A stretch of 32,202 bases of DNA from Utricularia gibba (Eukaryota; Streptophyta; Magnoliopsida; Lamiales; Lentibulariaceae), in assembly GCA_002189035.1 (NCBI GenBank), contig NEEC01000130.1, positions 1-32,202 on the forward strand. The letters are read 5' to 3'. A program made the translations under genes and the position numbers. The notes below the pieces were generated by a model that did not search any database, had not been told where the DNA came from, and worked only from the letters and a program-made list of their open reading frames with translations. Of this stretch, positions 9,562 to 32,202 are shown piece by piece. Numbering within the stretch: the first letter of the stretch is position 1; every line of letters starts with the position of its first letter.

Positions 9562-10883
9562 CTACCCCCTGCAATTGAAAAATCCCCAATCGGATTCTCC
9601 AGATTCCGGCGAATATGATAAAAAACGAAGACGGCGGAGCAGTTCTACTTCCACTGTGCGTCGTCGTCCCCTTGAAACGCCGGGTCTGTTGCTCTTTACT
9701 GGCGAGATGAACCGCGGGTTGTTCGTAGAAACAACCGAATGCACCAAATACATCAAAATGCTCTTTCTTCTACAAGTATACGAAAGAGTATTCACTTTTT
9801 ATTTTTTTTAAAAACATCGTATTTTGTATAAAAATTTTTTATTTTTGAGTAAAAAAAAGAAAATTTTAAATGTTTTTAGTAACAATAAAATTGAATCATA
9901 AAAATAATGATGATTTCAGGATTTTTAAATCACAATTTTTTATTATTTTATTAACTTAAATTATATCCACAATTTTAATAAAAAAATACAATTTTTGATA
10001 TAGTATATAAAATTTTAAAAAATTGAAAAAGACGAGTATTTTTTTAATTACTTGTAATAGTGAATATTTTTGTAATGTGTGTTTAATATAAAATTTAGTT
10101 CCATAAAGTCAAATTACGTAGTTAATCATATGTTATTGATTTTCAAAAAATAACTGTTAATTTCCATAATTTAAAAATCATATATAATTGATTTTAAAAT
10201 TGAACAAAATCAGTCCATATTGTTTTCCACTACAAAAAAAATTAATTTCAATTATAAAATTCTAATTTTTTTTTATCAATTTCATATCTTCCCATCATAC
10301 ACTCGAATGCCAGATGCCTATTTAGAAAATTAACCACTGTTACATTTTATCTCACACATTTTAATAAAAAAATGCATATAGAATGATCACTTTTTTCACA
10401 CAATATTTCATAAATTTTTAACCATGCCTTCACATACATACATTTCATCGAGCCTGCAGGAAATGACGTGACAGACGATGGGCGGCCACCGATCGACCGT
10501 ACACGGTGTCAAAGCACAAATTTTACTAAATAGTAAAACAATGAGATGTTAATTATATTTGATTTTTAAATAATGAAGATCAATTAATTTTATATGAAAA
10601 TAGTAAAAACTAAAAATAGTCAAAATGAAAAAAACATTAAAATCTAATTTTAATCAATACATCAAATTTTGTGAATTAAGTAAGTTAATTGAGATTAAAT
10701 ATGTCATTTAAACTAAATATTAAAAACTAATATTTTATGCATAATTCAGAATAATATATATATTTTTTATTTATGGATGCAATATAAGCATCTCTTCTAA
10801 CTGCATACACTCATTGAAAACGACGCATACAAACTCCTTCAGTAGTGGTAGCCTGTCGATCTTCCATGGATTCATCTCAAAGA
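9562..10883. other. AT-rich intergenic region
   Basis: From 9562 to about 9780 this is the upstream region of the DUF1639 gene, moderately GC-rich. From 9790 to 10770 it is A/T-rich with poly-A and poly-T tracts. A short GC-rich patch at about 10455-10510 contains TGACGTGACAGACGATGGGC and has no open frame. No gene is supported. Confidence 0.65.
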
Positions 10884-12093
10884 TCATTGTTGTGAGTACG
10901 AGGACGGCGGGTGCCATCCGATCCACCGGGCGCCGGATGGTGCAATGCCGGAGTTTGTCCGGCGTGGCCGGAAGCGGGGTTCTGAGGCAAACCCAACAGA
11001 CAGGATCATCATATGCGATTCTTGTAAAAATTGAGGGATGGATCCACGACTCACGAGTAGCGAGAATGGCACCTCGAGTGTTCCTTGGGTTGCTGCAAAG
11101 GAAGGGTTTAGCCAAGCCTGATGAGGAATCTCATTGAATCCAAGTCTTGTTTTTTGAATCCAAAGCCACATAACTTGTGTCTCAGCTTGGAGACATCTGA
11201 TGCGCTTGATCGCTTGGTCCAGAATCGCAGCTTGATCCCACTGAAAACAATGGTTCTTGGAGCTTGTTGGAGCTCCGGAAGTGGTGATAATCATGGTGAG
11301 GTTGATGATTATACCTTGGAGTTGCTTGTGCTCGGTAAAAGCTCCCGGAGGCTTCTCAGTTTCTCCCTCACTGCATCCCTTCTCTTCTGTTGAAAAACAG
11401 CTATGGTCATTTATGATGATTATGGTGTAAAAATTGTAGAAGTTACTGGTATTGCTTCACCCTGTCGCGTAACAACTGAAGCCTTTTCTTCCGCCGGAGC
11501 TTCTTCTGCTGATCCTGGATAACAGGGACCCGTAGATGTAAAGGAATTTACTGGGTTTCGGTAAGAGATTACAGGCTCACCAGATCTGCGCCCTGAGACC
11601 AAATCTGAGTTTTCCGTGGCGGTAAAGGAACGCTACGAGTTTGATCAGCATTCAAGGGATCTTCAGGGGATTTACCGGCGACCGCCCCCTTATCTGCCAT
11701 GCTCCACGTTTCCGGCAACGGCAGCAAAACTGTGGGATTTTGATCAGTGTTCAGGGGAATGTCAGGGGGGTGATTGAAGATCCCCGCCATGCCCACCGAA
11801 ATCTGAGTTTCCGGCAACGGCAAAGAAAAGGTGCGAACTTGATCAGTCTGCAGGGGAATCTCAGAGGTTTTATCGCCGACCACCGCTGCATCCACCGGAG
11901 TCCAAGTTTCCGTTGAGGAAACTCCACGAGCTTCATTCCCCGTCAGGGAGACTCAGAGGGTTCAACAACGAACGCCGCTGTATCCACAGGAATCCGAGTT
12001 TCCGGCGAGAGAAGGAGACTGCAGGTGCTGTTCATAGTCTCGCAAAATGGCAGATATCTCGTCGGAGTCGAAAACTTGAAGGTAATCCTCCAT
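10884..12093 (-). CDS. Atypical bHLH transcription factor with N-terminal 33-residue tandem repeats (frame breaks present)
   Basis: Start ATG is at 12093 (MEDYLQVFDSDEISAILRDY). Exon 1 runs to 11461 and ends in a basic stretch, DQQKKLRRKKRLQLLRDR. Exon 2 (11315-11386) encodes KRRDAVREKLRSLRELLPST plus four residues. Exon 3 starts at 11240 with WDQAAILDQAIKRIRCLQAE, which reads as loop plus helix 2. All three are in phase, and together they form a helix-loop-helix. The basic region lacks the usual His/Glu-Arg E-box contact pattern, so DNA binding may be weak or altered. Between the start and the basic region lie four to five copies of a 33-residue repeat. The frame changes at least twice there: near the start of the repeats, and at 11944-11950, where a CCC run precedes TGACGGGG. 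A possible 66-base intron (11484-11549) would avoid two further stops. The 3' end at 10884 is the first in-frame stop and is uncertain. The context recalls Arabidopsis MEE8 (At1g25310), from memory only. Confidence 0.7.
11605..12010 (-). repeat. 99-bp (33-codon) tandem repeat in bHLH exon 1
   Basis: A GTTTCCG-type anchor recurs near 11608, 11707, 11807, 11906 and 11998, a spacing of 99, 100, 99 and 92 bases. In the open frame the units read ET(W/Q)...(E/D)(I/D)PL..(T/A)DQ......LP(L/P)P, with exactly 33 residues in the two complete units. The last spacing is short, and it coincides with the frame breaks. Confidence 0.85.
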
Positions 12094-13639
12094 TGTCTCT
12101 GCCTTTTTTCGGTGACTGGTGATATGAAACAGGACACAAATCGATCATGTGAAGCTTCTGCCATGGAAATAGCGAAGCATGTCAGAGCTCCAGTTTTCGG
12201 CTGCCGCCATTTTATTTCTTCTTTAATAGGAATGCGTCCGTCGGATGCCTAAAATGGAATTTTCTTTAAGTCCAATTTTAGCGGATGATAAGCCGTACAC
12301 CTAATTCAAACTTTTTTTTAATTAAAAATATATTTCATTAAAGTAGTTTATGTAATTAATAATATATTTAAATTATTTAAAAGTATTTTTTAGTAAATTG
12401 ATTTTACAAATAGGTATTTAAAATGATATTGTATTTAATAGATATAATTAAATAGATGAAAAAAAATCTAACCTAGTTCACATAATTAAAGTAACTCATA
12501 TAACATGATAGTTTTAAAAAATATTTTAAAAATAAATATTAATGTGTTTCACAAATTGAATATATATTATAAAATAAATTTAATAATATAATAACCATTT
12601 TGTAATATATCCCACATTCTACGAGGGATCTCCTTTCTCGCATAGTGTGGCGGTGGAGTGGTCCGGCCACCGGCCACCGTCCGTCGGAGAAGCATCTCTG
12701 AAACTGCACTTTGTTCGTGGCTGCCAACGTGACTCCCAATAGTGTTCCGATTTTACTGAAATTATTTGGATGATATTATATTTATTATATTACTTTAATA
12801 TTTGTAGGTTCCCAAATTGAAAATCGAAACCAGCATGTACTATAGAACCTAGTTTTGAGAAGGGTGGATTCCGATACTAGCAATCTTTTGTGTTAAATAT
12901 ATATTATCCATATTTATTTCATAAAAATATTTCCAATTAATAATGTTGTCATGGAAATCCCAGTAAATTACAAAAGTGGTTATGTATAGAAATAAAAATA
13001 TTTAAATATCTGAGAGATAAAATGATAATGATCATTTTTGTAAATGATATACTGGTCAAAGTGTACTCCAAAAGCTATTGTAGCAGTGGGGTAATTTTCA
13101 AATGGGGTTAGAAAATTCATCATCCTGTACCATTGGAATGAAATAGAAAACATAATTAATTTTAACAAAATTAAAAATTCTAATAAAATAAAAATTGATG
13201 TGTGTTTGAAATTGTTTTATAAAATTATTATTATAAAATTAATTAATATTTGAAATGAAAAAAATAATAATAAGTGATCTTTATAAATAATTTACATATT
13301 TACTAATATTTATTAATAAACATACTTTATAAATTTACTTAAACAAAACATATTATATAATATTAATATTTATCAAACTCTTAACTAATATTATCAAATT
13401 AGTATTTATTTTAAAATGATATTAATTATAATTCTGTATTAATAAATAGATATAATAGTAAATTCAATTGTTAAAATCGAATCTTAAAAAACAATTATCT
13501 ATGAAAAACTACACACATCCATATTTTTCAGAAAATTGAATTGATTTTTAAAAATGAATTCTGATAGAAGAGAATCAGGTATATATTTATAAGACATTAA
13601 TTCTACGACAATACAATTCAATTTTGTATTATAATTTGA

Positions 13640-13760
13640 TGGGGGGTGGAGGCGTGTCCTGAGGGGCGGACACGGAACCGAGGATAAGGATAGGGTGCCT
13701 GGGAAACAGAAGGAACGTATCCCGGTAACGTCGCTGCCCCTTCAAGCCGCGTCCTCAAAA
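13640..13760. other. GC-rich island with a 7-bp hairpin and GGATAAGGAT
   Basis: A sharply GC-rich stretch in AT-rich surroundings. CGTGTCC (13653-13659) and GGACACG (13668-13674) form a perfect 7-bp stem with an 8-base loop. GGATAAGGAT lies at 13682-13691. No open reading frame crosses it. It may be a conserved non-coding or regulatory element, or a remnant of a former exon. Confidence 0.35.
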
Positions 13761-14679
13761 TGGGATTTTTTAAGCAGTTCTTCTAGAGCACACCAATGCA
13801 TATCAATAGCTATAAATATATTATCCACATTAGCCAAGACATTTCCTACTTCTAAAAAATAATTTTATTACTAAACACATGTTGTAAAATAAACATAAAT
13901 TTAAAAACGTTTCTAATTTTGAATAAATTATAGAGCTTCAGTTTATATTTTATTAAAAATACTTTTTGAATATTATTTGTCAAAAAAATAGAATCCAACA
14001 AATGCTTTAGAAACATTCCTTATTTTTAATAAATTACACATACAATTTTTTATTATTAGAACCATTTCTTATAAAATTCTTTTTGATGGGTAAATGTTGA
14101 GTTTAATATTTAAGGAGTATTGTGAAAAATTTTTGAATGTAATTTTTATTTTTGGAAAAGTAAAAAGTAGAATTAAATTGCAATAACTTAGATCAGGAAA
14201 CTGAGAATTAAAAACATTTTCAGAAATCTAATGTCAAAAATAGAAATAATAAATAAAAGCAATTATTTTATTATTTCTACTTTTACCTCATTTTCAACTA
14301 TATCCAAAAATTATTTTTGTTAAAAACAGAAATAGAAATATGAAGTATTCTACGTAAATTATTTTTGATAAAAATAGAAATATAAATAGCATTCAAAAAT
14401 TTTTAAGAACACAATTTTAATTTTCAAAAACTAATCACTTTAAGTTTGGCTCTAATACTAAATATTATAATTCATTCTATCATTGTACAATATTATACAT
14501 TTGGATATTGAACTTGCATGATTTTACGTTTTTTTCATTTCGAATAAAATGGGCCCTATAACATTTGCATAGTAAAACAATTAAGCATAGGTTTTGGAAG
14601 GGAGGAGGCAGGGGATCATCCTCCTAAAAGGATTTATATCATTTTCTTTTTGTTTTTTGCATGTAAAATGTTGAACCCC

Positions 14680-14795
14680 AGGAAACAGGATAAGGATTCG
14701 GGATGCCAGTTGCCACAGTGGAACGTGTCCAGGTGTCGGTGTCCATTGCAGATGCCGTATCCCTAGAGTCCAGTCCACCTTCGCATCACCTGCTA
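14680..14795. other. Second GC-rich island sharing GGATAAGGAT and CGTGTCC
   Basis: It contains GGATAAGGAT at 14688-14697 and CGTGTCC at 14724-14730, the same two short motifs as the island at 13640-13760 but in the opposite order. A GATAAG core is an I-box-type motif, and ACGTGTC (14723-14729) is ABRE-like. A 73-codon minus-strand frame (14581-14802) crosses it but resembles no family I know. Confidence 0.35.
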
Positions 14796-15449
14796 CGTAC
14801 ATACTGTATTCTTTCCTCGTTCCGTTCCATTGGCTAAGTATATTAGATTCATGACAGAAATAATTTCGTAAAAAAAATATAGTTTATATTTTGATCATTG
14901 AAAACTTTCACTATAGGTAAAATATCATATGTGATCACTGCATGCTTTTGAGTGCAATGTTTTATATTCTCAACAGTTGTATTAAGATATTTTGACGGCA
15001 ATACAACCTCATCATTTCTGAGTTCTTGATATCACATGTGAGGTTTGTATGATAAAAAGCTTTACACAAATATTCCATGATTTATTTTGCAACTACTTGT
15101 AAGTATCTTCATTAAGTGATTAAAAATCCTACATTGGTCTTGCAAACAACTCTTTAATCATTTACATGTTTTATCATCCCTTTCATTTTGGAATTTGTAT
15201 GAATTTGAACGATTTTATTCGATAATATTTTATTGTTATCTTTATCAAGATAATATAAATCATCTTATATCAAATCATATTCAACGAGTTCATTTGTAAA
15301 ATATATCATATAAAAAGTTTCAGCATTTCTACTTTCTCACACATTTGTGTATTTCTTATTCTTCTATCCTATAACTACAAGAATAGTTTCTCTTGTCTTG
15401 TTAGAATAAGCAACATTCCTTTGAGCAATCGTATTAACTTGTTCAACTC

Positions 15450-15665
15450 AAGAAAAAATCTGATGAAAATATGCAAACCTATAAAACTATGATTGTAGCT
15501 AAGTGTTATAATCAGAGAGAGTGAAGCAATTATGATTAAACCTTATCTTCGATAGTCATACTTGAACTTATTAGATATCTATTGTTTATTGGTGTACATC
15601 TAAATTATGAGATTTGGCATATGGATGTCAAAATCGTTTTTTTGAATACGTTATTGAAAAAGGAA
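15450..15665 (+). mobile_element. Decayed Ty1/copia retrotransposon, reverse-transcriptase fragment
   Basis: One frame of 72 codons, interrupted by two stops (15522-15524 and 15537-15539), reads through the N-terminal part of a copia-type reverse transcriptase. Recognisable pieces are a TYKTMIVAKCYNQRE segment (family pattern: YKARLVAKGYxQ) and EIWHMDVKIVFLN (family pattern: EIWQMDVKTAFLN). The catalytic YVDD region, integrase and LTRs are not visible. The surrounding AT-rich DNA probably includes more decayed element sequence. It is non-functional. Confidence 0.8.
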
Positions 15666-16300
15666 AATACGAAGCAATGTTTTAAACTTTGCTAAAATTT
15701 TTCAAAAATTTGGATTTCAGATTTTTTTAAACAATTTTCAAACTTTAGATTTATTCTGTGTTAATAATTTTTTTGAAGTGACTATATTTAATTTTTTAAA
15801 ATTCTAAAATTTAATCGTAAAATCAAAATTCATATTTTATGATCAAATTTAGAAATTATTAAATTTTTTAAATCTACGTTCGTGATTAAATAAAATAGTC
15901 ATTAGAAAAATTTTATTATTTATTTATGGTTTTATTTAAAAATACAGTTATATCATAATATATTAAATTTCAATATATTTTTTATTTTATTGAATTTTAT
16001 AATATAATGTTTTATTATTGAATAAAATAGTTTTACAATTTCAAAACTAATTATATGTATAAATATCAAAATTAATTCTATTTTATATAATATAAATACC
16101 TTCAATTATAGATCAATTGCTTTCTTCAAATTTTCCTCATTTTTCTTGAGATTTTTTCCACATTTCTCTTTTTAGATCAAATCTGAAATTCAAAATTTTT
16201 CCAAAGATTATTTTGAGGTAGAGAAGGATTGTTTTGTCGAATTACCGAAGAGTTGATTTACCAAATGAGCCCTTCAGATTTGGAGCCCGTACGTAAAATT

Positions 16301-17039
16301 TTTCAGTGGCACAAATGTCATTTACCTACACACGAGACAGTCGGTAATTGAAGTTAATGGCAGCGGCGGGAGTCGTTCGGTGAGTGTACTTCCCCACGAT
16401 ACAAACCCAACGCCTCCTGCAGACGTGGCGGCTTCCCATCGGTGGTCGCCTCCAGCTCTGAGGATCACGTAGCGGCCCACCTCACAAAAGTGCATCCACA
16501 TAGCCTGCTTTTTGGTGAAGACAACCGACTGAAGTAACGTTCATATCGCAGTCGCCTTCTTGTTTTCTCTCCTTTTTCTACTTTTTTTTTCTAAAGAATT
16601 CCTGTTTTTCGACGAAAAGCACAAGCTCGGTCCCTTATATCATTATCGTTATCGGTATAGGATTCACTCGTGATCTGCTCTGCCATCTTTTGAGGTCTTT
16701 CCTGTGACCACTTTTTCCGCTGCTTTCGTTGGTGGGTGCTCAGCTTCCCCTGAGTCCGAGGTTAGTTTCGTTTTCCGATCCCGGATATTCGTGTCTGATG
16801 TGTGTTTGCGGCAAAATTAAGGAAATCTGCAGACCCAGCACGACGAATTCCGAGCTGTTTATCTATGTCTGTTCTTTGCCGCTGAAATCTCACCTGCATC
16901 GAATGAATGAAATAACCTTTTTTTTTTCTTTTGAAAGAATGGGATTGTGAACTGATTGTTTTGGAAGAAGGTAATGGGGAGCTTGCAGATGTTGGAGAAG
17001 CGAAAGGTTTTACTGCTGTGATTGAGAAGAAGGGAGCTG
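16301..17039 (+). promoter_or_regulatory. Upstream region and 5' UTR of the BBX27-like gene
   Basis: GC content rises abruptly at about 16310. ACGT-core motifs occur as GACGTGGC (16422-16429) and CACGT (16466-16470); such G-box/ABRE-like sites bind HY5-class bZIPs and are common in light-regulated genes. Poly-pyrimidine stretches around 16550-16600 suggest a transcript leader. The start site cannot be fixed from sequence alone. Open frames on both strands at 16729-17208 are not supported as genes. Confidence 0.4.
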
Positions 17040-18381
17040 ATGGATAAGCAGTGTGATTTTTGTGTGGCATCGAGGCCTGTTGTATACTGCAAGGCGGATG
17101 CTGCGTATCTGTGCTTGTTGTGCGACGCCAAGGTTCATTCTGCCAACGCCTTGTCCTCTCGCCATCCTCGTACGCTGCTGTGCGACCTCTGCCGATGCCA
17201 CCCTGCACGTCTCCGATGCCTCGATCACGACGTTTTCATGTGCCGGAGTTGCGATTCCGGCCACAGCACCTCATGCCAGCAACAGAGGAGATCGGTGAAC
17301 TCCTACGCCGGATGCCCTTCTGCTACGGATTTAGCTGCACTGTGGAGACACAGTTCAACTCTCTCTGAAGTAACATCCTCTGGCAAAGAACCATCTTCCA
17401 GTTCTTCATCAGCAACTCAAGCCAAGGTGCATTCGTCTTACTTTTTTCTTCAGAGGAAGTTACATGAAGCTTGATGATCATGATTCTCACAGGGTGTGGA
17501 AGCTGATACACTGATGCAAAGTAGCTATGTACTGCATCAGATAATGGACCTGGATCGGCTGGAGCTCTCCGACGGCGCTGTGAAGGAACTGGCTGTGAAG
17601 AACGATGCGCAGGTCGACTACTGTGATGGCGAACTTCTTGAGTTAGACACTTCATTCTGGGAATGCAAAAGCCCTGCTGACAGCAATGAGGTTGTCCAGA
17701 CGACACGAATCTAGAATCCCATGTAAATAGAAAGAAAGGAGCAATCTTGGTCTGATCCACGATGCCTGTGCAGATATGGATGCAGGATCTCGGATTCTGT
17801 GACGATCCACGATACTTGGACAATGTTACTATACCTGATGTCGACCCGAAATTCCAGAACCTGGAAGACATCTTCGGGGATGGAGGAGGGAGCATGGAGA
17901 ATGCCTTTTTCTGCTCTGGCCAGGATTCATCTTCTGGCAAAGGAGAGCAGCTTTGTGGGAGCATAATCCAGGTAATCTCTCTGTTTCAGCAAATGAGTGT
18001 TCTTATTGCGAAAGAGGGATTCCATGCTTTGTGATTGCAGCTCCAGAAGCAAGACAGCACAGAAAGCAGAGAAACAAGCATATTTGATCAGCCAAATGGA
18101 TCTTCCTACTCAACTTCATCCTCCTCCATCTCCAAAGTCATCACAGAGAGCAGCGGTTATGAGTACAAAGACGACGGGTATTCTCCTAGTAGAGAGAAAG
18201 TGATAATGAGATACAAGGAGAAGAAAACAGCAAGGTATGTCTGCTGAGTGTTTAAATTCATCCTGGTTTTCCTGCAAAGAGTCGACCCTGAATTGGGCAT
18301 TGGATGTATCTGGTATACAGGCAGGAAAAGCAAGCTGAGTATGCAGCAGCAAGGGACAAATCTGCAGAGAAAAAGGGGTAA
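17040..18381 (+). CDS. Double B-box zinc-finger protein, BBX27-like, with shortened CCT motif
   Basis: Five exons join in phase: 17040-17426, 17493-17690, 17774-17971, 18041-18234 and 18321-18381 (345 residues). B-box 1 spans residues 5-42 (CDFC ... VVYCKADAAYLCLLCDAKVH). B-box 2 spans about 48-75 (CDLC ... RCLDHDVFMCRSCDSGH). A conserved GCPSATDLAALW follows. The middle has LDTSFWECKSPADSNE and IWMQDLGFCDD...IPDVDPKFQNLEDIFG, and the C-terminus has KVIMRYKEKKTARQEKQAEY. These match the Arabidopsis BBX27 (At1g68190) layout as I remember it. B-boxes mediate protein-protein and transcriptional interactions, often in light signalling. The C-terminal CCT-like motif keeps only its first half, as in BBX27. 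The ATG at 17040 was chosen because it lies just before the first B-box cysteine. No frame breaks are seen. Confidence 0.93.
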
Positions 18382-19778
18382 AATTCAGGTAATGATACAA
18401 CAAGAAGGCGATAAAAGCTCAGCAAACATCACCAGAAGCATTTGAAGCTGCAAGCCGTTCACATTGAACGCTTTTAGAGAACACCTGGGAATGCTTGCTT
18501 ATCGCAGGGCTTTCTTGAGAGTACAATTTTTCATACATACGCTTGTTGATTCGAATAGTTCATCCATTGGGAAGCTTCTTCGTGCTCAAAATTGAAAAAC
18601 TCCCAGATGCAATATTCTGCACAGAGGCTTCAGTTATATGTGATGATAATTCACAACGTGAACGACTCCAGGCAAATGACAAGAGAAGAGCAAGTAAACC
18701 AAGGCTCGAACGAACCTTTTCCAATTCATGAGCCATGATAACGTCAAAATCAAATGGGCCACGCGTTGAATTAGGTTATGATAATGTCAAAATTAAAGAT
18801 ACAATGAATACACGAATACATATGAAATCTAAATATACAAACATATAAATTATATTAAAAATAAATAAATACAATAAATTAATATTGATATACAATCTCT
18901 TCAAAAAACTTACGTTTCATGTGTTGTAGTTCAATTTATTGGATACTTAATTTTATCATGATATTACAATACTTATCTTGTAACATAATTTGGATGGGCA
19001 ATATGAGTTTTTTATTAGTATAAGTTTGAGTTAAAAAAAAAAAAGATGTTTTAGGTTTAAATAACAAAAATTAAATAGATTTATGACTTAAATAATAACT
19101 ATAATCACATACAAAACAAAAAAATAAGTATTAATTAGATTAAAGATCAATTCAATTTGAGAGCATATATTAAAATAAATAATTCCCAATTAAAAAATTA
19201 AAATGAAATTATCAAATATATAAAAAATTATAAATCAATAATAAATGATTGAACATAATATTTTTTTTAATATTATTTACATTTATTTTATACTTTAACT
19301 TTAAATTTGCTCGTTCGACTCATCAAATCATTAACTTAAATATACGTAAGTTAAAGACTGCTCTCTCCTAAGATACCCATAAACTAGATCAACATAAGAA
19401 ATTGGAATCAAGAGTTAGTACAGGGACATTATTTTAAATTGCCTGAATAAGAGCACCACTGCTAAATGAAAGATAGATTGAAAAACCAAAGTTGATAATT
19501 TGATATTTTAAAAATATTTTAAACCACACATTTGATATAAAATGAAATATCTTTATTTACCCTTTTAAAAATTAAATCGATTTTCAAATTAAATTGAATT
19601 TCACTTGAAGGAGTAAAAGATAATAAAATTTGAAATTTTAACTTAAAAGAAAATCTGGAGTAATTTTGTAACAAATGATGGAAATACTCATTTTGTTTGA
19701 ACACCAAACCAAAAAATATTTTAAAAATAATTATTGGTATTTATTTTTTCCTTTTTTTAAGAAAATAAAAATTCATTT
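18382..19778. other. Intergenic: BBX27-like 3' flank and AT-rich spacer
   Basis: 18382-18730 probably contains the 3' UTR of the BBX27-like gene. From 18780 to 19770 the DNA is A/T-rich. I see no gene, RNA or clear repeat here. Confidence 0.65.
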
Positions 19779-19806
19779 CGTCACTATGACGACACTGCAT
19801 ACGTCA
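19779..19806 (+). promoter_or_regulatory. as-1-like cluster of TGACG motifs in GST promoter
   Basis: CGTCA (19779-19783), TGACG (19787-19791) and CGTCA (19802-19806) are packed within 28 bases, ending 11 bases before a TATA box. as-1 elements are paired TGACG motifs bound by TGA bZIP factors. They drive auxin-, salicylate- and xenobiotic-induced expression of tau GSTs. The spacing differs from the classical element, so function is inferred. Confidence 0.55.
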
Positions 19807-19817
19807 TATGTTGCTTC

Positions 19818-19824
19818 TATATAA
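19818..19824 (+). promoter_or_regulatory. TATA box (TATATAA) of the GST gene
   Basis: TATATAA lies 78 bases before the ATG and just downstream of the TGACG cluster, a normal distance for a short 5' UTR. Confidence 0.65.
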
Positions 19825-19901
19825 CACCATTTACATCCAACGAAAACTGCACTACACGTCTTTTGTTTTTTTTACTCTCTGATTTGCACATCTGAAACTC
19901 C

Positions 19902-20670
19902 ATGGCTGCAGAATCGGCACAAGTGAAGCTTTTGGGCACAAAGCAAAGCCCATTTGCACTGAGGGCGCGCATATCCCTCAACCTCAAGTCCGTGGAGTAC
20001 GAGTTCCTGGAGGAACATTTTCCTGGTAAGAGCGAACTCCTCCTCAAATCCAATCCTGTTATGAAGAAAGTTCCCGTTCTCATCCACGGCGACGTCCCCA
20101 TCTCTGAATCTCTCGTCATTCTTCACTACATTGATGAGACCTGGTCCCAGGGACCCCCGATCCTCCCTTCTCATCCCGACGAGCGCGCTGTTGCCCGGTT
20201 CTGGGCTCACTGCATCGACGAAAAGGTACCATTTTGGAATAGCCCTTATGCCATTTTTTCTAATGTAGAGGAGCTCAGATACGTTTCCTCTGTTGTAGTG
20301 GTTTCCATGTGTTAGTGGCATTCTGCTGACAGAAGGAGAAGAGTTGAAGCAGAAGGTGGAGGGAGCCACAGAAGGAGTCGCTTTGCTGGAAAATGCTTTT
20401 GTGGGTATAAGCAAAGGGAAGAAGTTCTTTGGGGGAGAAACCATCGGATATCTGGACATTGCGTTCGGATGCTTTCTCCAATGGTTGGATGTTATCGGTG
20501 TGCTCTCTGGTCTGAAGCTCATCGATGAAATCAGGACTCCAAATTTGTTCCAATGGGCTCAAAATTTCACCTCCGACGCGGCGGTGAAGGATCTTCTGCC
20601 CCAGACCGATGAGCTCGTCGAGTTCGCTCAGTTCCGCATCAGCAGCTTCAAAGCTCCGGCCAAGAACTGA
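19902..20670 (+). CDS. Tau-class glutathione S-transferase
   Basis: Cytosolic GST, 231 residues from two exons (19902-20225 and 20299-20670) split by a 73-base GT-AG intron at the position usual for tau GSTs, after CIDEK and before WFPCVSG. The N-terminal thioredoxin-like domain has KLLGTKQSPFALRARISLNL, with the likely catalytic Ser16, and the glutathione-site ES pair in GDVPISESLVILHYIDETW. The C-terminal helical domain has ATEGVALLENAF, GKKFFGGETIGYLDIAFGCF and EFAQFRI. The length is typical, and the sequence is closest in my memory to the GSTU17/GSTU18 group. Such enzymes conjugate glutathione to xenobiotics or bind stress metabolites. No frame breaks are seen. The promoter carries an as-1-like cluster. 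Confidence 0.96.
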
Positions 20671-22980
20671 GTTGCTTCTGGTAAGAGGATATCAATGTGC
20701 ACCGCCTGCGTCTGTATCTCTATTCTGCTTTCCATGCTTTTTTCGATTTGAATTGTGTTTGTGAGTGTTCTGACGATCCAAATGTTCCTGTTTTTTTTTA
20801 AATAATCATTGTATAAAATATAAAATTTGAAAAGCTTAATCGTCGTGCTTAATATGAGGCCAGATACCTAATAATGAAATAATATGCTGGTTACATTTTA
20901 TTTATAAAGAAATAACATAAAAAAGTGAAAATTAACTATTTAAAATAAATAATATCGTACAATGAGATCACAGATCATGACATTTGATATCATAATCAAA
21001 CCTGATTAAATGCTAATGATGGGATAAAGGAATACTCAAGTAAGTATACTGAATGTTTAAGAGAAAAAGAATATAGGATTAGTAGACCAGTGTGACGCCA
21101 TCCCACACTAGTTACATACCACTGATGTATTTAAATAGAATAACTGTACTAATCTTTTATGAGATTCGGTGTCTGTAGTAGATAATGGAAATGTAGGTCG
21201 TTACATATCTCTACTTAACTATGATTGATTTGTGATGTATCTTTTATATTTTAAAATACAAAAGATTCTCAAATCGATTGCATTTTAACACTTCATTTTC
21301 TAGTTGGATCTGGGTTCAAGTATACACATGATTTTTTAATTGTTTGGATGATTTGGTAATAAGATCAAACTATCACATTATTAAATTCAATAGTCCACAT
21401 GGTACTCTGACTAATAACATACACGTGGACAAATAAAATATGACTGTAAAATTTAATTAACATAAAAATATCCATGTTATAATATTCAAAATGTGTATAA
21501 AAATACTAATTTGATTTATTAAAATATATATGCTACTTTTTTAAACTCATATTTATAAACTTCTCAGTATTTTCGAATAAACTATATATATATATAATTT
21601 GATTTCACGTTTTTTATTCGGTACTCAAATTTTTAAACAAAATTTAAACTACAAATTCAACACAACACAACTCCAACTATAAATTCAACACAATTTCAAA
21701 CATACTAAAGTTTGTACTATAGACACGCACTTTATAAAAAGATGGTATTTCGGAAATGACATGTTTTAGATATAATCATATGATTAGAAATCCTCACTAA
21801 AAAAACAGTGATTTTGCGAACTAAAAAACTCTGAAAAATTCCTATTTTTATAAAAACGGTCTAAAATTAATTTATTACAAATTCTAATGAGTTAATTTGA
21901 AAAAAAAAAAAACATAGCCGAAGTGGGATAAGAATTAATAATTAAATGGTATATCGTTATTCGGTGTTTCGTTATGAATAAGAAATTAATGATTCTCTAT
22001 TGTATCCTACGAAAATGGGATAAAATAATCCAAGATTATTAGATGGTATTATTTAATCCCTCAATAATATCATAAATACCTTTTGTTTTTGTTTTTTTAT
22101 AGAAAACCCAATTCAAAAAAATAAGAATATTTTCGTTATTTTAATTATATAAACAATTATCCTATCCCAATTATTACAATATAAATTAAACACATCAAAA
22201 TACAATACCATCTAATTCTAACTCATTATTCTATTTAATTTTATCTTGACATAACTTATCGTACCACATGCACCTTAATTTATAAAACTATGTGAAAATG
22301 TTTGAATAATTCCCACTTGCAATTTAATAACCATTTCAAATCTCGGTAATCCATCACGCTCGATTCTAGCCTAGCTGACGTATTCCATAATTAACACACT
22401 GTTTTTAATATTAGAAATTAATGTCATTAAGAAGACCAAAATGTATTCGTAGCTAATTAATGATATTCTTTTTCATTTATAAATAAGGATATTGATAATC
22501 ACCCTTTCATTCTTTCCAACACATTAATCAAAATTTTTTATTGAAAATGATCATTTTTTCACATAATTAAGAAAGGACAATCAGATTAATAATAAAATAA
22601 TAAGAAAATGGTTATGGTACAATTTATCTCACACATTAAATTTAAATTTTTACACTAAAAGTAGCCACTTTTATCATAATGATCCAATGTTGATGGGGGA
22701 GAGCATGCTTACTTTTTAATAAATTCATAATTGACAATTTTTCTAATAAAAAAATAAACTATATATTTGTGGTGGTTACGTAACTTTAAATGTTATATTA
22801 AAAAATAGATGTTTCTAAGAATTTTATAATAAAAAAATAAAAAATATGTATTGAATATTTATTGTCTTGCTTGGTAAACTCAACCGCGACGTGACGCCTT
22901 GATGTTTTCTCCGTGGGTGGTGAAAAGGGCGTATTTTCGTACGCGGAGGACTGAAGGAAAATTCTCCCTTCTCCGCCGTG
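20671..22980. other. AT-rich intergenic region between GST and PADRE gene
   Basis: The first 150 bases are probably GST 3' UTR. The remainder is AT-rich with no supportable gene. A possible decayed MITE at about 21918-22267 is listed separately. Confidence 0.65.
21918..22267. repeat. Possible decayed MITE with weak inverted ends
   Basis: The left end (GTGGGATAAGAATTAATAAT, then TAAATGGTAT) weakly resembles the reverse complement of the right end (GTGGTACGATAAG ... AGAATTAGATGGTAT). The internal ATTAGATGGTATTATTTAAT is another related copy. Pairing is imperfect, and no target-site duplication was identified. Confidence 0.3.
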
Positions 22981-22986
22981 TTGCCT

Positions 22987-23017
22987 GGTCAAATCCGGCC
23001 AAATACTTGCATATAAA
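22987..23017 (+). promoter_or_regulatory. W-box (GGTCAA) and TATA box of PADRE gene 1
   Basis: GGTCAA, the reverse of the WRKY-binding TTGACC, lies at 22987-22992. ATATAAA follows at 23011-23017, 51 bases before the ATG. The TATA call is fairly safe. The W-box is a short motif, but it fits a stress- and pathogen-responsive family. Confidence 0.45.
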
Positions 23018-23067
23018 TTTGGAACCGCGCCGCTGATTTTTCTGTCTCACCACGCGCGGGGATTCCG

Positions 23068-23553
23068 ATGGGGAACCACATCTCGTGCAGATTAGGAGCC
23101 GCCAAGTCCACCAGGGTGATTCTCCCCGGCGGCGAAGTGCGCCAGTTCAAGGAACCGGTGACGGCGGCGGATCTGATGCTCGAATCGCCTAATTTCTTCC
23201 TCGTGAACTCACGATCGTTGAGGATAGGGAGGCGGTTGTCGCCGATTGCCGCGGATGAGGATCTCGAGTTCGGAAACCTCTATATTATGATTCCCATGAG
23301 GAGAGTTCATTCCGTAGCGACGGCGGCGGATGTCGCTGTTTTTATGATGGCTGGCAATTCCGCGTCCAGGAGGATCCAAGACCCCGCCGGCGTTTCAGGG
23401 GGCGCCAGGATATCGCCCGACACCACGGCGGTCGGAGGAGAGACAGGCAGTGGCGCCACGGAATTGAGTTACCCTGGGGAGTTGACGGAGTTCAAGTACA
23501 GGCTGTCGGTTTCCCGGTCGAAGCGGCCGGCGCTGGATACCATAACGGAATAG
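23068..23553 (+). CDS. PADRE (DUF4228) domain protein 1
   Basis: Single-exon gene of 161 residues. It begins MGNHISC, with Gly2 suited to N-myristoylation and Cys7 to palmitoylation, so membrane association is likely. The PADRE core follows: RVILPGGEVRQFKEPVTAAD, LMLESPNFFLVNS and DLEFGNLYIMIPM. A low-complexity middle leads to the conserved C-terminal ELTEFKYRLSVSRSKR...LDTITE. PADRE proteins are plant-specific and frequently induced by fungal pathogens and abiotic stress; their molecular role is unknown. The frame is intact, and the start is supported by the MGN motif and an upstream TATA box. Confidence 0.93.
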   Translation: MGNHISCRLGAAKSTRVILPGGEVRQFKEPVTAADLMLESPNFFLVNSRSLRIGRRLSPIAADEDLEFGNLYIMIPMRRVHSVATAADVAVFMMAGNSASRRIQDPAGVSGGARISPDTTAVGGETGSGATELSYPGELTEFKYRLSVSRSKRPALDTITE

Positions 23554-24739
23554 CTGTTGAGATAATTTCTCCGCATGCGGTTGTATTTTAGATTTTTCTT
23601 TCTTTATGGAAATTTGTGTTTTTTAGGCCATTACACGAATTTTGAGTTGAATGTGAAATGTATATGATTTAATTAGATATATACACATATACATATATAT
23701 ATATTGATCATTAAATATTTTTTAATACAAAATTTAAATAATAGATATTATATAATTATTTTAAAATATTAAATAAACAAATGGAGCCAATGTGTGTATA
23801 TATATTCCTGTTATTAATTGAGAATAGAGTTTTCAATGTCAACTTCATGCATTTTTTAATCTAATTCACATATTTTGTGTCAATTTCAAATTTAATTTAT
23901 ACTAATTAACATATTAAAAGCCAAAAAAAAAAATAAGTATTTAAAAAATAGAAATTGAGCTACTGGAAACCATTTATGAAAGTATTTTATAGCTTTCTTG
24001 GGTTATTTATACAAAAAAGGCTAAACCTATTGGTGGACGTTTTTACTAATTCAAACGCACATTATTTTTGTATAATATTATTGGAACTAAATTTTATAAT
24101 TTTACATTATCATCTTTTGGAGATATTATTTAAATTAATAACATCATTCGTCCCTAATGAATGTGGAATATTATTTCTAGACCAAGGGCGTTACATATTT
24201 TTTTAGGTAATAAAATTACTCTATTATTTATTAAAATCCATTAGGGCGAATGGTGTGTTAGAGCATCAAGAAGAAAAAAACAATATCATTAAAAATATTC
24301 AACAATCAAGCAAGGGCCTAGCGCGTGGCCCTCCATTACTGGGGAGATAGGAGAGCGTGGGAAAAACGGCCGATGGGTGCGCGTAAAGATGGACGAGTGG
24401 CTCTTTCTCTTTGCAGCCATTGATGAGACCTTAAATCATCTGGAACCATAACCAGATCTCTTTGAATCATTTATTTGAGTAACCAAAGTCATAGGGAAAA
24501 TTCCGTTTCCATGTTCTTGTTCAGTACCTTGATACTGGGGAAGTAGTACAGGAAATCAGATGCGGAGAGATTGAGTTTTGTCCTTTTTTGTTGAGGAAGA
24601 TCTGAGGCATCCCAACTTGAGAAAAATGGAGTCTTGGTCATTTGCCGCGACCCCTTTTCTCTGTTGGGAAATTTGGAGGTTTCATTTTGCAATATAGTTT
24701 TTGTTCGAATTCTTGGTTCAATTCCAATCTGGAGTTTGG
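23554..24739. other. Intergenic: PADRE 1 3' flank, AT-rich spacer and GT14 5' region
   Basis: An AT microsatellite (CATATACATATATATATATT region) lies at about 23683-23705. 23955-24206 has an 83-codon frame rich in Ile, Leu and Phe that looks like chance in AT-rich DNA. From about 24310 GC content rises into the presumed promoter and 5' UTR of the next gene. Confidence 0.6.
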
Positions 24740-26758
24740 ATGGGAGCTGAAAGAAAATGTTTGTTCATCCTGTTTTCGGGTGCATTCGTTACCTTATTGA
24801 TCTTCTTGTCGCTTATTTCGGGCTTCAGTTACCCTTACTTCTCCGCATTCCCACCGGAAAAGTCATTTGTTCCAACGATTCACAAAGGGCCGGGCCTTCC
24901 TCCGGCATTCGCATACTACATTTTCGGCGGTCCTGGCGATGTGGATAGATTGTTCCGGCTGCTGCTCGCGTATACCATCCAGGAATAGATATTTGCTTCA
25001 TATTTCAGCTGATGGCAGCGATGACGAGAGGATTAGACTTGGGGCGTTGGTGAAAACAGTGCCCGCTCTTCGAGCATTTGGTAATGTGGATTTGATTGGG
25101 AAGCCTGATCCAAATACTCCACTGGGTTCCACGAATATTGCAGCTATCTTAAGAGCTGCTGCGATTTTGTTAAAGTTAGATTTTGGCTGGGATTGGTTTG
25201 TCCCTCTCAGTGCTTTGGATTATCCCTTGATTACCCAGGATGGTATGCTTTGTCTCTGTTGTGGATAAGAACCTTGCTTTCCTTTTGTTTTTGTTCATTC
25301 TAATATGGTAAATTGAATCTTTTTTGGACATTTTAATGCTGAATTGGATTTCTCTGCTGGATGAAATACTTAGCCTTCTGGTAACAACACAAATTGGTTG
25401 TTACTCCTGTAAACGAGCTCCATTACTTGATGTAGTCACCTTTTTACTAATTTGGAGTGTAACTTTTGGACATGATTGACTTATTGTAGGTCTATTATGG
25501 ATCCTGTTGGCTTAGTCTTACTGTTGTGAATTCTCGAGTTACCTTAGCAGTGATATGAAACTTCACCTGTCTGTGTTATGTTTACTGCAAATTTACAGAA
25601 CTTTTTCCCTTGCTAATGCGTTTGCACAATTTCCTGATGTATCTTCTCTTCTATAGAGCTTGGAAATGGTTAAAATATATCTTTTATTTGCAAGGGATTG
25701 CATTGTGCATAATCTACTCTTTGAGTTGCTTTTCAAATACACACTCTGTCAATCAAGTTTGCCAAAAGTAAAGCACGCTGCTAGAAGCTATCAGATATGC
25801 TTAAGTTCACGGATCTATCTGCAAATGAATGTTATCTGCTTGTTTTTTCACCTCCCCTGTGCAGCCATTGATCTGTTTACTTTGTGTTTGTTGTTTCAGA
25901 CTTGTCCCATGCGTTCTCCTCTGTTAGAAGAGACCTCAACTTCATCCAGCACACTAGTGATCTGGGATGGAAAGAGTAGGCAAAATCCTCTTCCCATATG
26001 TGGATTTCAACACCATTGAAAATGTTTTCCTAAAGTTTTCATGATCATCTCTGCAGGAATGACAGGATTCGGCCCATTGTAGTGATCCCTCTGTCTACCT
26101 TGCAAGGAAGTCACAAATCTTTCGTGCAACCGAAAAGCGGCCATTGCCTGATGCTTTCAAAGTCTACACAGGTACCATACCAAGTCCCTGTAATCCATCT
26201 CTCTCGATCCAAATGAAATGATCATATGTTGTTTCCTGCTAGGTTCGCCATGGTTTATCCTTAGTCGATCGTTCCTGGAGTTCTGTATTCTTGGCTGGGA
26301 TAACCTTCCACGCACCCTTCTCATGTATGCTAACAATGTCATCTTGCCCCAAGAAGTCTACTTCCATTCCGTCATCTGCAACTCCCCAGAGTTCAAGAAC
26401 ACTACTGTGAATCGGATTTGAGGTACTTCATCTGGGACGATCCTCCCAAGATGGAGCCTCATTTTCTCAGCAGCTCGAATTACGCCGGCATGGTTCGAAG
26501 CAGAGCGCTTTTGCTCGACAGTTCAAGGCGTATGATCCAGTTCTAGACATGATAGACAAGCGAATCCTCATGCGAGGCCGCAACCGCGTAACGCCTGGTG
26601 CTTGGTGCACTGGCAGTGGAAGCTGGTTCATGGATCCCTGCTCCAAGTGGAGGAGCAACATCAACGTTGTGAAGCCTGGATCTCGAGCCATGGAACTCCG
26701 GGAGTCCTTAGAGAAGCTTCTGGAGGAGCGGCAGACGCAGCACCATATCTGCACTTGA
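24740..26758 (+). CDS. GT14 beta-glucuronosyltransferase-like (GlcAT14 family), with five apparent one-base losses
   Basis: Golgi type II membrane glycosyltransferase of family GT14 (Core-2/I-branching fold). Plant members add glucuronic acid to arabinogalactan-protein glycans. Exons: 24740-25242, 25900-25975, 26057-26171 and 26243-26758. MGAERK is followed by a signal-anchor helix ([20 protein letters not shown]). The catalytic domain then shows [123 protein letters not shown] and [20 protein letters not shown]. Conservation is strong, but the frame slips near 24969, 24982, 26084, 26415 and 26510; each slip is repaired by one extra base. The fourth is GGG reduced to GG, and the fifth lies in a T-run. 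The exon phases fit only if these bases are restored. As written it would encode only a short truncated protein. Intron 1 (25243-25899) holds no other feature. It may be a real pseudogene, but assembly error is more likely. Confidence 0.9.
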
Positions 26759-27954
26759 TTATTGCAGGTTCGGAAACACTTCCCACAAACAGGCTCAATG
26801 CCGTTCTTTGGATTTGTGAAGGTATCCTTTGAAGTGAAATCTTTAGAAGATAGAGGCTCAGGGAATGGAAGCTGCTGCTGCTGAGTTTTTTTTTTTTTTT
26901 TTCATTTTTTTGGGAGGATGAAGCTGTTGCTGTATAGATGACTCTGATTCTTTTTGATGAACTTGAGAGGAATTGTATCAGTGTACTTCCAGATTCTCAT
27001 TGATCATTTTGTTTGATGATAATTTAATTAATAATATGTTTAAATAATTTATGTTCAAATAAATACATTTGATGTTCTTAAAATTTAAAATATATTTGAT
27101 ATATGTATTTTTAATAGTCTTTCAAAATGATTGTTAATAAATGTATTTAAAATAAATCAAAAAAAATATTGTTTTACTAAAAAATTAATGCAAAAAAAAA
27201 ACCTAATGTGAATAACATAGTTATGCAAATATGATAAATATGTATTAATGAATTAAATAACAATTCATATGTAAAATTGAATATAAATATTCTATACTAT
27301 ATAATCAATCACTCTCTTAGTATTTATTGGGTTAACTCTAACTAACTAACATTAAAGTTTTAATAACTAATAACAATATTAATAATCCATTAATTGATAA
27401 ACTCAAATTAAATTGGGTTAATAGGCTAAAGTAATGTTTTGAAAATGTTTGAAGCTTATTTTATTTTTTGAAAATTACCAAAAATATTTTTAAATTTAGA
27501 TCAGCCGCAAATTAAATGATTTAAAATATAATAATTCATAATTTATTATATTTTTATAAAAAGTTTTAATTTAAAATAAATTTTTCAGGCATATTATTTT
27601 TTTTTTTTGTCCAAGAAAAGAAAACACAGATTTATTTTGACCAGAGAGAGACCAGAGTCATTGCAATGTGCAGGAATATCAGGCAGCATATCATTGGCAT
27701 CTATGAAATGAAATAAGATACAAACAGAAGAAAACAAATGAAAACGAGTAGCCTGGGAAAAAATCTTGTGCAAGTCTTTGGATTCCGGTGTGTGGTTGGT
27801 CGGCAAATTTTTTATTGGCTCGCCAGCGCCAACTGTAGAAAGCTCAGACGGAGCTCGCAGTGAAATACAAATACCCCACAATTCGTTTCTTGTTCCCATT
27901 GCAAAAATCAGTGACATTTTCGTAGCTGGGGCGGCCTTCGTTTCACACCTCTAA
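26759..27954. other. Intergenic: GT14 3' flank, AT-rich spacer and PUB promoter
   Basis: A run of 18 T residues lies at 26886-26903 in the presumed 3' UTR. 27000-27600 is AT-rich without features. 27610-27954 is more balanced and is the likely promoter and 5' UTR of the U-box gene. The minus-strand frame at 27594-27917 resembles no family. Confidence 0.6.
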
Positions 27955-30649
27955 ATGGGCGATGGATATTCTTCGTCGAGGAGGGGCGGCGGAGCTGATG
28001 CTCCTTTGGCCGTAATTCGCGACATTCTTCGGATCTCCGGCGCCTGTAGTTTTCCGGGTGTCTTCAGGAAGGAGTGTGTGGAGTTGGTCCGGAGAATCTC
28101 GCTTTTGACTCATTTTCTTGAGGAAATTTGGGATTCCGAGAAGAATCGAGGGATTGCGAGATGGGTGGTTCCTCTTCGAACCGCTCTTGCTTTGCCGATT
28201 TGACTCTCGTGCTCCACGACGCCAGAAGGCTGCTTCTTGCCGCTGCCAACAACTTCGATTTTGCAGAGGACGCTTCTGTGAGTAGTCTCTTTCAGATTTC
28301 GCTCCTGCATTTGCTTCTCGGGTCAACCCTTTATCATGTTAAACTCCTAACTTCCCAGAAATGTTGTTAAGTTGCCTATTTCTGTGGCTTAAGCCTTGAG
28401 AGAGCGCTGATCTAAGCCTCTTCCTTCATGCATTCCGGTCCAGTTGGAACTTTCATGATGCTTTAGAAGCAGGGTTCTTGCTGAAATCGACAGATACCTA
28501 GCAAGAATCTGGCATCGGCATCGTTTTCCCTCTGCTTTTTAGGGAGTTTTAACCTTGGGAGGATGAAGTGAAACATTTCACGTGGGGTTGGTTTATGTCG
28601 GAAACTTTTCCCTCTGCATCTGGCTGTTGCTCTCGAACTTCCTTTTCGAGATTAGGTAGTCACTGAGGGGGACGAATCAGGCCAAGTTGGATAAGATGAT
28701 GCTTACTGTTTGAATCATTTGAGACCATTAGTGTGCTTGCTTAACCGAATAAGCGCGCACCCATGTTGCTCCAAACTGGCATGTTCCTACAAGCCTCAGC
28801 ATACTCCTCTGTCTGCTTATTTCTTGTCTTGACTTTGGGTGTGCATTTTAACACCATCCATTGAAGCTTACTGTTGTTTCTTGTTCAAGGTCATGTGCAC
28901 AAGAGAATCGCCATCCGATTTCGGGGGTGACGATGGAGTGGAGAAAGCACTGCTGAACTTTCCATATCAGTCTTTTGAAATATCAGAAGATGTGCAAGAC
29001 CAGGTTAGTAATAGCTCTTCTTGAACTTTCACCAGGCCAATGGAACTTTTCTGTAACTGGATCTAAGCTGTTGTGTATCCTTGTCGTCTCAGATTAAACT
29101 TATCCGGTCGCAGTTGAGACGAGCAGTCGGAAAATACAGCAGTTCAGATTCGAGCTTAGTACCACCGCCTTCAGATATTGAAGCTGATCTATCTCTACTT
29201 AGCAGCAGGGTAGCTAAAGTTCGAATTGAGGTTACAAAGAATGTCAATATCAAGTTCAGCCAGAGGCAGATGCTCTTGTGGAAAGCAAGGATTCTGAGGC
29301 CAGTGGAACGGATGAAGGTGCAGATGATAAGGGAAGCTTAAGTGAGACTAATGCTCATGAGAATTCCAAGAAAATGATGGCCGAAAAGGCAACTAGAAAG
29401 TGAAGAGGAGAGCAAGGCTCTAGGCTGCTCCCATCATTCACTTGTGATTCCTGTTGATTTCCTCTGCCCTATTTCACTTGAGCTCATGAAGGATCCTGTG
29501 ATCGTTGCGACTGGCCAGGTTCGAATCGAAAGTTAATCTTCTTCAGGGTTATTTCAGATTCTGCTTCATCTGACTCAACTGTAACATATTTCAGACATAT
29601 GAGCGATCTTGCATTCAGAGATGGATAGACTGTGGCAACAAGACATGCCCGAAAACTCGGCAGAAGCTATGGCACCTCAGTTTTACTCCAATCATCTGCT
29701 AAGGCGTTTGATATCCCAATGGTGTGTCAAGAACAATGTGCATCTCCCCACTGCTCTCATTGATGGAAAGATAAGACAGAGTGATGGCTCATTTCGGAAT
29801 ATCACTGGTAACATAGCAACTATCCGGGATCTTGTTCGTACCCTCTCTAGATCGACGGAGGATCTCCGGGCGGCAGTGGCTGAGATAAGATCACTCTCCA
29901 GGAGAAGCACAGACAACCGGATATTGCTAGCAGAAGCCGGAGCTATCCCGCTTCTAGTTAACCTGTTGCCATCTCAGGACGCTGGAATTCAGGATAATGC
30001 CATAACATGCATCCTGAATCTTTCTATATATGAGAGCAACAAGGAACTCATAGTGCTTGCAGATGCCATTCCATTGATCGTTAGAGTTCTCAGTACCGGA
30101 AGCATGGAAGCAAGAGAGAATGCAGCTGCCACCCTCTTCTGTTTATCCCTTGTAGATGAGAACAAGATCACAATCGGCGCGTCCGGAGCTATTCCAGCGC
30201 TGGCCTGCTTGAGAGTGGAACCCCAGGGGAAGAAAGATGCTGCAACCGCATTATTCAGCCTGTGTGCATACTCCCGGAACAAGGGGCGAGCCATCAAGGC
30301 TGGCATTGTACCTCCGCTACTGAACATGCTTACAGACGCACAAATAGCTTGGTGGATGAATCCCTGACCATGATAGCAGTCCTTGTAGCTACCGTGAAGC
30401 GAAATCAGCGATAGTGAAAGCCAACATGATACCTGTCTTGACTGGACTTGTGAGTACAGGCTCACCTCGCAACCAGGAGAATGCATCCGCCATTCTGCTT
30501 TCTCTGTGCAAGAAGGATAAGGAAAGCCTCGCCTCTGCCCGCCAACTCGGTGTAGTCGCCCCTCTCTTCGAGCTCACCAAAAACGGCACGGAAAGAGCAG
30601 GAGGAAAGCACTGCAGTTGCTGGAGATCCTGGCCAACACACCTCAGTGA
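27955..30649 (+). CDS. U-box/ARM-repeat E3 ubiquitin ligase, PUB10/PUB11 type, with many frame breaks
   Basis: Four exons: 27955-28277, 28890-29003, 29093-29518 and 29595-30649. The N-terminal UND region reads [38 protein letters not shown] and, in another frame, [38 protein letters not shown] and [15 protein letters not shown] follow. The U-box, which binds E2 enzymes, reads [25 protein letters not shown] | [23 protein letters not shown] repeats follow, including [32 protein letters not shown] and [12 protein letters not shown], and they end in [20 protein letters not shown] and ELTKNGTER. At least ten one-base shifts are needed to read through (near 28145, 28905, 28925, 28936, 29258, 29400, 29693, 30207-30230, 30337, 30391 and 30600). 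Several are at homopolymers such as G5 at 28923-28927. The splice sites remain canonical. The 612-base intron 1 shows no other gene. Confidence 0.9.
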
Positions 30650-31539
30650 TTAACAGGTTCTTCTTTCTTCTTCCCTGAGAACACTATATTTAACTGTTCA
30701 AGGGCATGATTGGATTCGACTGGACAATGGGGGAGACGAACCAAAGCATGATGTATTTGCCAAAATGCTTTGTGGGTTCGCCATATTGGATTGCTATTCT
30801 TCATTCCCTTCATTCTTGAAGCTCTGTGAAATGCCTTGTTACCATGGCTGGCTACTACAACTGCTGAGTCTTTCATTGTTCCTGCTTTCTGAGATGATTG
30901 AAATGAAAGTAATGCAACTCACTGTTCATGTAATGGTTGAAGCGACAAGCACAGCACCCAAAAGAAACAGCAAAGTATAATTTATATATCAAATAGATGT
31001 AATTACATTGTTTAAAAAACCACTATTCTATTGTGATTTAATTATGTTAGATCAAGAATTGTACATGATAGAAAATGGATGAAAATCAAACTACTGTTGC
31101 ATAAAAAATAAATCTTAATCTAATCATGATTCAACTACTATTTAATTACGATTATCTATTTTTTTAAAAAGAATGTGCTTAATCAAGATTGAATCACTCA
31201 AATTGCGAACAATTGTAAATCACGATTTAAAACATTGTGTAATTCTGAATACATAATAGAAGCGTACGTGTTAAATATAATTTAAAAAACACAAGGCATC
31301 GTAGGGCTATTACTAATTAAACACTAAAAAGGGTTGAGAAATCCCAGGAGTTACGTAACGCATTTTGGTTCGTCCTCTTTGGCATTAATCTAACTGCACT
31401 GATCAAAGAGTACTTTATTTCAGAGTCAAATGCCGGTTCTGCGAAGGAAGTAACTGAATCTCAGGGCTCTGGCTAGGGTTTTTTATGTAGTGAATGATAG
31501 AGCTCGTACCTGGATTGGATTGAGGGAGAGAAATCACTC
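30650..31539. other. Intergenic: PUB 3' flank and PADRE 2 promoter
   Basis: 30650-30980 is probably the 3' UTR of the U-box gene. 30980-31330 is AT-rich. 31340-31539 is the promoter side of the next gene and contains GTTACGTAAC (31352-31361), a perfect palindrome with an ACGT core of the kind bound by bZIP factors. No gene is seen. Confidence 0.6.
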
Positions 31540-32202
31540 ATGGGAAACAGCATCGGAAATAGAAGAATGGCGGTTGTGGTGAGAACCAACGGGGACACTT
31601 TCAGATTGCCATGTCCGATACAGGCGGGAAAAGTGCTTGCAAATTATCCGGACACGTTTTGTTGGAGTCAGAGGAGGCGCGGCGCCGTGGAATCGGAGCT
31701 ACCTGATGGATCCGGATGACGATCTTGAGCCGAAGCGGATCTACTTTCTGATTCCGAAATCGGAGTTTCCAGAGGAGAGTAGGATTTTGACGAAATCGAG
31801 ATCGGAAGTTCGTCTGAGTGCCAGGGAGAGGCTGGAGAGCATCAAGATGCGGAGGTCGGCGCCGGCGATGCGCATCGCGATGGCTCCGACAGACGTTTCT
31901 GGAGTTCGGGTGACTATCCGAGTGAAGAAATCGGAGTTAGAAAGGATGCTGCGCGAGGACGGATACGGCAAGGAGCGGCGGCGGCCGCCCCGCTCAAGAA
32001 GCCAAGAACTCCGATCGTCGATCGCCTCAGGTTTCGTTTGCTCCAACTTCAATTCACGTAAAACTTCAAAACAAGGGTTTCGCTATCGGCTTTTTCATTC
32101 AAAAAGCAGAGAACTTGAATGTCTCCGTTGGTTCGTTCATGTTGCAGAGGCACAGTGGACTTTGTACCATCAACGAAAGTGACATCAAAATGCATGCTAC
32201 CG
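31540..32202 (+). CDS. PADRE (DUF4228) domain protein 2, two apparent one-base losses, probably partial at right edge
   Basis: The ATG at 31540 starts MGNSIGNRRMAVVVRTNGDT, an N-myristoylation-type start followed by the PADRE beta-strand. LPCPIQAGKVLANYP then reads into a break near 31654. The next segment is in a second frame (GHVLLESEEARRRGIGAT-like), and a second break lies near 31703. The remaining core is in the third frame: LMDPDDDLEPKRIYFLIPKS, EFPEE, RLSARERLESIKMRRSAPAM. One extra base at each point (a G in the CCGG run and a C in the CC run) would make the frame continuous. A GT donor at 32031 and an AG acceptor before 32148 suggest a second exon running to or past the window end. 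This gene has more of the PKxxFPEE-type core than PADRE 1, so the two belong to different subgroups. Confidence 0.8.

Follow-up and report, generated by a model that had tools for sequence, protein, structure and literature searches.

Three neighbouring genes near the right end of a contig of Utricularia gibba, a GT14 (Core-2/I-branching) gene, a plant U-box/ARM gene and a second PADRE gene, can be read as members of their families only after the insertion of several bases, and the question is whether they are broken in the plant or only in the printed sequence. The window analyzed here is the whole of contig C120 (32,202 bp), which belongs to an assembly of 100.09 Mb in 516 contigs; an entry in a review (PMC5793159) lists U. 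gibba as a PacBio HGAP assembly, with a genome of 82 Mb. Our results indicate that the finding is an ordinary assembly artefact: the breaks are present in the printed sequence, but almost certainly not in the plant. On the chromosome, all three genes are probably ordinary and unbroken, apart from one doubt about the U-box gene (see below).

When three parts of the window were used in DNA searches, each had a second copy on C2, a contig of 6.19 Mb in this assembly, with an identity of 100% (rounded) for positions 1-3000, 95% for 24700-27000 and 99% for 29600-31000, and C120 is collinear with C2:1360820-1393996 over its full 32,202 bp. The searches with 24700-27000 and 29600-31000 also matched a more distant copy on C451 (identity to the window, 71-84% in three pieces for GT14 and 80% for the U-box gene). 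This third copy (C451:3079320-3085839) is roughly 80% identical, and in it the order of the GT14 and U-box genes is kept and neither gene is broken; it comes perhaps from an older genome duplication. No copy of the second PADRE gene near these two C451 genes was found among 32 PADRE matches (the sole C451 match is at 6.38 Mb), and thus the breaks of this gene were judged only by the open frame of C2 and by Pfam scores. The gene models (Table 1) were drawn on C2 using splice sites and homology. At the internal splice sites of the GT14 and U-box models, C2 has GT/AG dinucleotides, which agrees with the claim of an earlier note on this DNA that the splice sites are intact. The comparison of the window with C2 was made by one alignment script, and at complex sites, such as 29215-29222, the indels can be split in more than one way.

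Table 1. Features of the window (positions on C120); mismatches, losses and gains are those of C120 relative to C2
Feature	Positions	Strand	Basis or differences
Entire contig, redundant second copy (probable haplotig) of C2:1360820-1393996	1..32202	.	Size and collinear matches
Left part, near-identical to C2	1..7900	.	2 mismatches, 6 losses, 4 gains
Diverged middle	7901..23400	.	675 mismatches, 139 losses, 135 gains
Right end, one-sided base losses	23401..32202	.	125 mismatches, 53 losses, 19 gains
Terminal stretch (last 2.85 kb)	29351..32202	.	7 mismatches, 23 losses, 4 gains
GT14 (Core-2/I-branching) gene, exons 24740-25242, 25900-25975, 26057-26171, 26243-26758	24740..26758	+	Splice sites and homology; PF02485 on C2 exon 4 and C451 exon 1
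Plant U-box/ARM gene, exons 27955-28277, 28890-29003, 29093-29518, 29595-30649	27955..30649	+	PF04564, PF00514 and PF25598 on C2 and C451 exon 4
First exon of second PADRE gene, as modelled	31540..32030	+	4 losses, 1 gain; C2 exon open

The mismatch density between C120 and C2 ranges from 0 to about 10% per kb. The highest values lie within 7900-23400, with hardly any mismatches at both ends, so that the two copies form a sharp mosaic. In the left part, nine of the ten indels adjoin single-base runs of at least 4, and the one exception, a gain of 14 bases, lies in an A-rich tract; in the middle, losses and gains relative to C2 are balanced. The ratio of single-base losses to gains is 5:3 in the left part, 44:54 in the middle and 39:10 in the right end (23.4-32.2 kb). 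The observation that the three genes are broken as printed, made earlier from the window itself, is confirmed against C2 and goes beyond chance (39:10 versus 44:54, Fisher P = 8e-5). Furthermore, indels outnumber mismatches in the terminal stretch (27:7), the reverse of the middle (274:675; Fisher P = 3e-9), and this supports the artefact reading. Natural divergence of the two copies looks like the middle, and the right end contains an extra class of differences, the one-sided losses.

The whole of C120 matches another contig of the assembly collinearly, and the pair diverges in an allele-like way: if indels are left aside, the ends at 1-7.9 and 29.4-32.2 kb are near-identical, and most of the DNA between them is diverged. 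Judged from this sequence pattern, C120 most likely represents the other haplotype of a stretch that is heterozygous in the plant and was assembled separately from C2, and an allelic rather than a duplicated origin seems probable. Haplotigs or heterotype false duplications, as described in two papers (PMC8081667, PMC10548655), are likewise small redundant contigs that are collinear with a main contig and contain both diverged and near-identical parts. However, their usual proof is read depth, whereas C120 is known from sequence alone. Another possible origin is a true recent segmental duplication, the right end of which would still carry assembly errors. Two copies on different contigs are not separable from alleles by their sequences, and a mismatch density as variable as that given above may also suit a duplication, but near-identical ends around a diverged middle, seen in part again in the contigs C316 and C412 (see below), are the pattern of an assembly bubble. 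We regard such a duplication as quite unlikely, and it would not conflict with the artefact reading. The breaks are very probably consensus errors, no matter how the contig arose.

In both C2 and C451, the GT14 gene has an unbroken frame from its start to its stop codon. The three-way alignment of its exons (window, C2 and C451) contains seven gaps: five, of one base each, occur in the window alone, and two, of three bases each, occur in C451 alone. The estimate of about five repairs, which the earlier note had made for this gene, corresponds to the five single-base losses in its exons relative to C2. Losses were found near both of the GT14 spots that had been listed, but at 26083, in a run of two, instead of 26084, and at 26506, outside the T4 run, instead of 26509. 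The Branch domain (PF02485, cut-off 23.4 bits) was detected in C2 exon 4 (67.8 bits) and C451 exon 1 (79.8 bits), with no match to it in the two window GT14 fragments scanned. In the case of the second PADRE gene, the modelled exon is broken as had been claimed, but two single-base repairs are too few to account for its differences from C2 (4 losses and 1 gain). PF14009 was detected in the C2 exon with 66.5 bits, and the window frame at 31583-32179 scored 29.1 bits, below the cut-off of 29.6 bits.

In C451, the U-box gene has no frame breaks at all, and it is fully open neither in the window nor in C2. Its exons have 18 gaps in the three-way alignment, 13 of which are private to the window (8 one-base, 2 two-base, 2 three-base and 1 four-base) and filled in both C2 and C451; as 11 of the 13 are not multiples of three, the previous figure of ten or more repairs holds. 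Of the other five gaps, two of one base are seen in C2 alone, one of 1 base and one of 18 bases are common to the window and C2, and one of 27 bases is seen in C451 alone. Two losses (30224 and 30226) lie where breaks had been placed, at about 30222-30230, although a 4-base loss at 30205 had been missed. C2 exon 4 exceeds the cut-offs of the U-box (PF04564, 28.3 bits) and ARM_PUB (PF25598, 85.2 bits) models; the window fragment 29603-30364 scored 45.4 bits for ARM_PUB and 72.9 bits for Arm, without a U-box match.

The two single-base losses private to C2 are in exon 3 (C2 1391072 and 1391090, corresponding to window 29309 and 29328), where the window and C451 agree. Together with a break that C2 has in common with the window, they show that C2 is not a clean reference and also holds errors or breaks. 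The common break is a one-base gap in exon 2, near a G5 run (window 28919-28923, C2 1390648-1390763). The break that had been assigned to this run (28923) is thus present, but it is not specific to C120. When C2 exon 2 is read from a downstream AG, its conserved part lies in a stop-free frame of 33 residues, but stops appear when it is read from the usual acceptor. A miscall at the run, common to the two contigs, would account for this break, and so would a real change accompanied by a shift of the acceptor. It is possible, though unlikely, that the U-box gene has one real frame change in exon 2 of both copies, tolerated by use of the downstream AG as the acceptor; the breaks private to the window would still be artefacts in that case.

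Losses are not confined to exons. In the region 24,740-32,202, the modelled exons (3,619 bp) have 24 losses, 4 gains and 36 mismatches relative to C2, and the non-exon DNA (3,844 bp) has 26 losses, 15 gains and 84 mismatches. The density of losses outside exons matches that in exons, and gains are commoner outside, as expected with the higher true divergence there. Similarly, 13 losses of the terminal stretch fall in its exons (1,714 bp) and 10 in its non-exon DNA (1,138 bp). Indels that are one-sided irrespective of coding status, as consensus errors should be, are thus what was found, with the reservation that for single bases the ratio of losses to gains in this region is 19:2 in exons and 18:8 outside, and therefore the loss bias is weaker outside exons. 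In eight control coding stretches left of 23.6 kb, which are open frames of our own choice and represent only parts of genes, there are 3 indels in 2,811 bp: one single-base gain in the frame at 704-1120, and a 4-base loss beside a 4-base gain in a GST frame. The frame at 704-1120, which we take to be ribosomal-protein-L15-like, had no Pfam match.

The earlier note had also placed many of the breaks in short homopolymers. Among the 37 single-base losses from 24.7 kb on, 29 are in C2 runs of at least 2 (background 48%, P = 2e-4), 13 in runs of at least 3 (background 19%, P = 0.02), 8 in runs of at least 4 (background 8%, P = 0.007) and 3 in runs of at least 5 (background 3.5%, P = 0.14). Homopolymer runs thus raise the risk of a loss, in keeping with that claim, without being the main context. 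Since 24 of the 37 losses lie in runs of 1-2, long homopolymers were rejected as the main cause.

A similar signature was observed at the end of another contig. C316 (38,022 bp) shares a U-box-like match with C412 and was compared with C412:825.7-860.4 kb. The alignment covers about 30 of the 38 kb; it left out 20-24 kb, and 24.0-25.6 kb is without a partner in the piece of C412 compared. The two are near-identical over the first 15 kb and the last 12.4 kb of C316, and between these ends the identity is 97.6% at 15.1-17.6 kb and 88% at 19.5-19.9 kb. In its first 14 kb, C316 differs from C412 by 6 mismatches, 9 losses of one base, 5 gains of one base and 1 longer gain, and the right 6.4 kb (31,637-38,022) has 0 mismatches, 18 losses (15 single-base and 3 longer) and 2 gains. 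A loss-dominated end is therefore not peculiar to the three genes of C120, although one control contig does not show how frequent such ends are.

The alternative to be weighed is a true loss, in which recent small deletions on one haplotype would have disrupted the three neighbouring genes. The printed frames are indeed broken, and the two copies have truly diverged over much of their length. However, no stop codon produced by substitution was found among 1,009 gap-free codons, 393 from GT14 and 616 from the U-box gene, and dN/dS relative to C451 is alike for the window and C2 (0.153 and 0.159 for GT14; 0.277 and 0.281 for the U-box gene). Between the window and C2, dN/dS is 0.18 for GT14 (13 differences) and, above this value, 0.41 for the U-box gene (23 differences), which is a point against the artefact reading. 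True pseudogenes resemble these genes in having multiple frame breaks per gene, but they differ in that here, for GT14 and the U-box gene, relaxed constraint and substitution stops are not seen, and losses are as dense outside exons as inside. Genes that had long been broken would differ in stops and in dN/dS; a very recent loss would leave dN/dS unchanged and would not yet show in either measure. Against such a recent loss are the 27 indels versus 7 mismatches of the terminal stretch, the similar density of losses in non-exon DNA and the end of C316. On these grounds, together with the absent substitution stops and the unchanged dN/dS, we rejected the simultaneous loss of three genes, which we consider very improbable.

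It might also be supposed that the genes are expressed from their broken frames by programmed frameshifting or RNA editing. The only point that speaks for this is the conserved protein pieces between the breaks. Because the GT14 copies in C2 and C451 are open and need no such rescue, and losses also occur outside exons, this explanation was rejected, and its probability is negligible. A deletion-biased assembly error in this part of the contig, as the earlier note had proposed, is supported by the open GT14 gene and modelled PADRE exon of C2, by the losses outside exons and by the lack of substitution stops.

The likeliest explanation of the errors is as follows. In a heterozygous stretch, the second haplotype would have been assembled as a small contig apart from C2, and reads matching both copies would go to C2. 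Few reads may then have supported or polished the right end of C120, and for this reason consensus errors, mostly lost single bases, would build up in its right-hand 8 kb or so. Such losses would fall both in exons and outside them, and those in exons would break the three genes located there. However, indels are few at the left end (1-7.9 kb), although it too is near-identical to C2, and this counts against the artefact reading in this form: identity to C2 alone does not predict errors, and the idea that errors simply follow this identity is weakened by the clean left end. According to the VGP paper, short indels causing frameshifts were the commonest errors before polishing, and false duplications were among the commonest assembly errors (PMC8081667). 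In the case described in the legend to Extended Data Fig. 11a of the same paper, all the polishing reads went to one member of a primary/alternate pair, and frameshift errors persisted in the other. That pair resembles ours in that indel errors which disrupt a gene remain in one of two matching sequences; however, the unpolished copy there was the primary, with linked reads, whereas here it is the small contig, and its right end only (PMC8081667).

Our results are a warning that, in this assembly, a gene located on a small redundant contig can enter a gene count a second time and be taken for a pseudogene. Even without reads, a contig can be checked by comparison with its partner, by asking whether the losses are one-sided and whether they are as dense outside genes as inside. 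Double counting and false pseudogenes of this kind matter wherever gene loss is studied from such an assembly.
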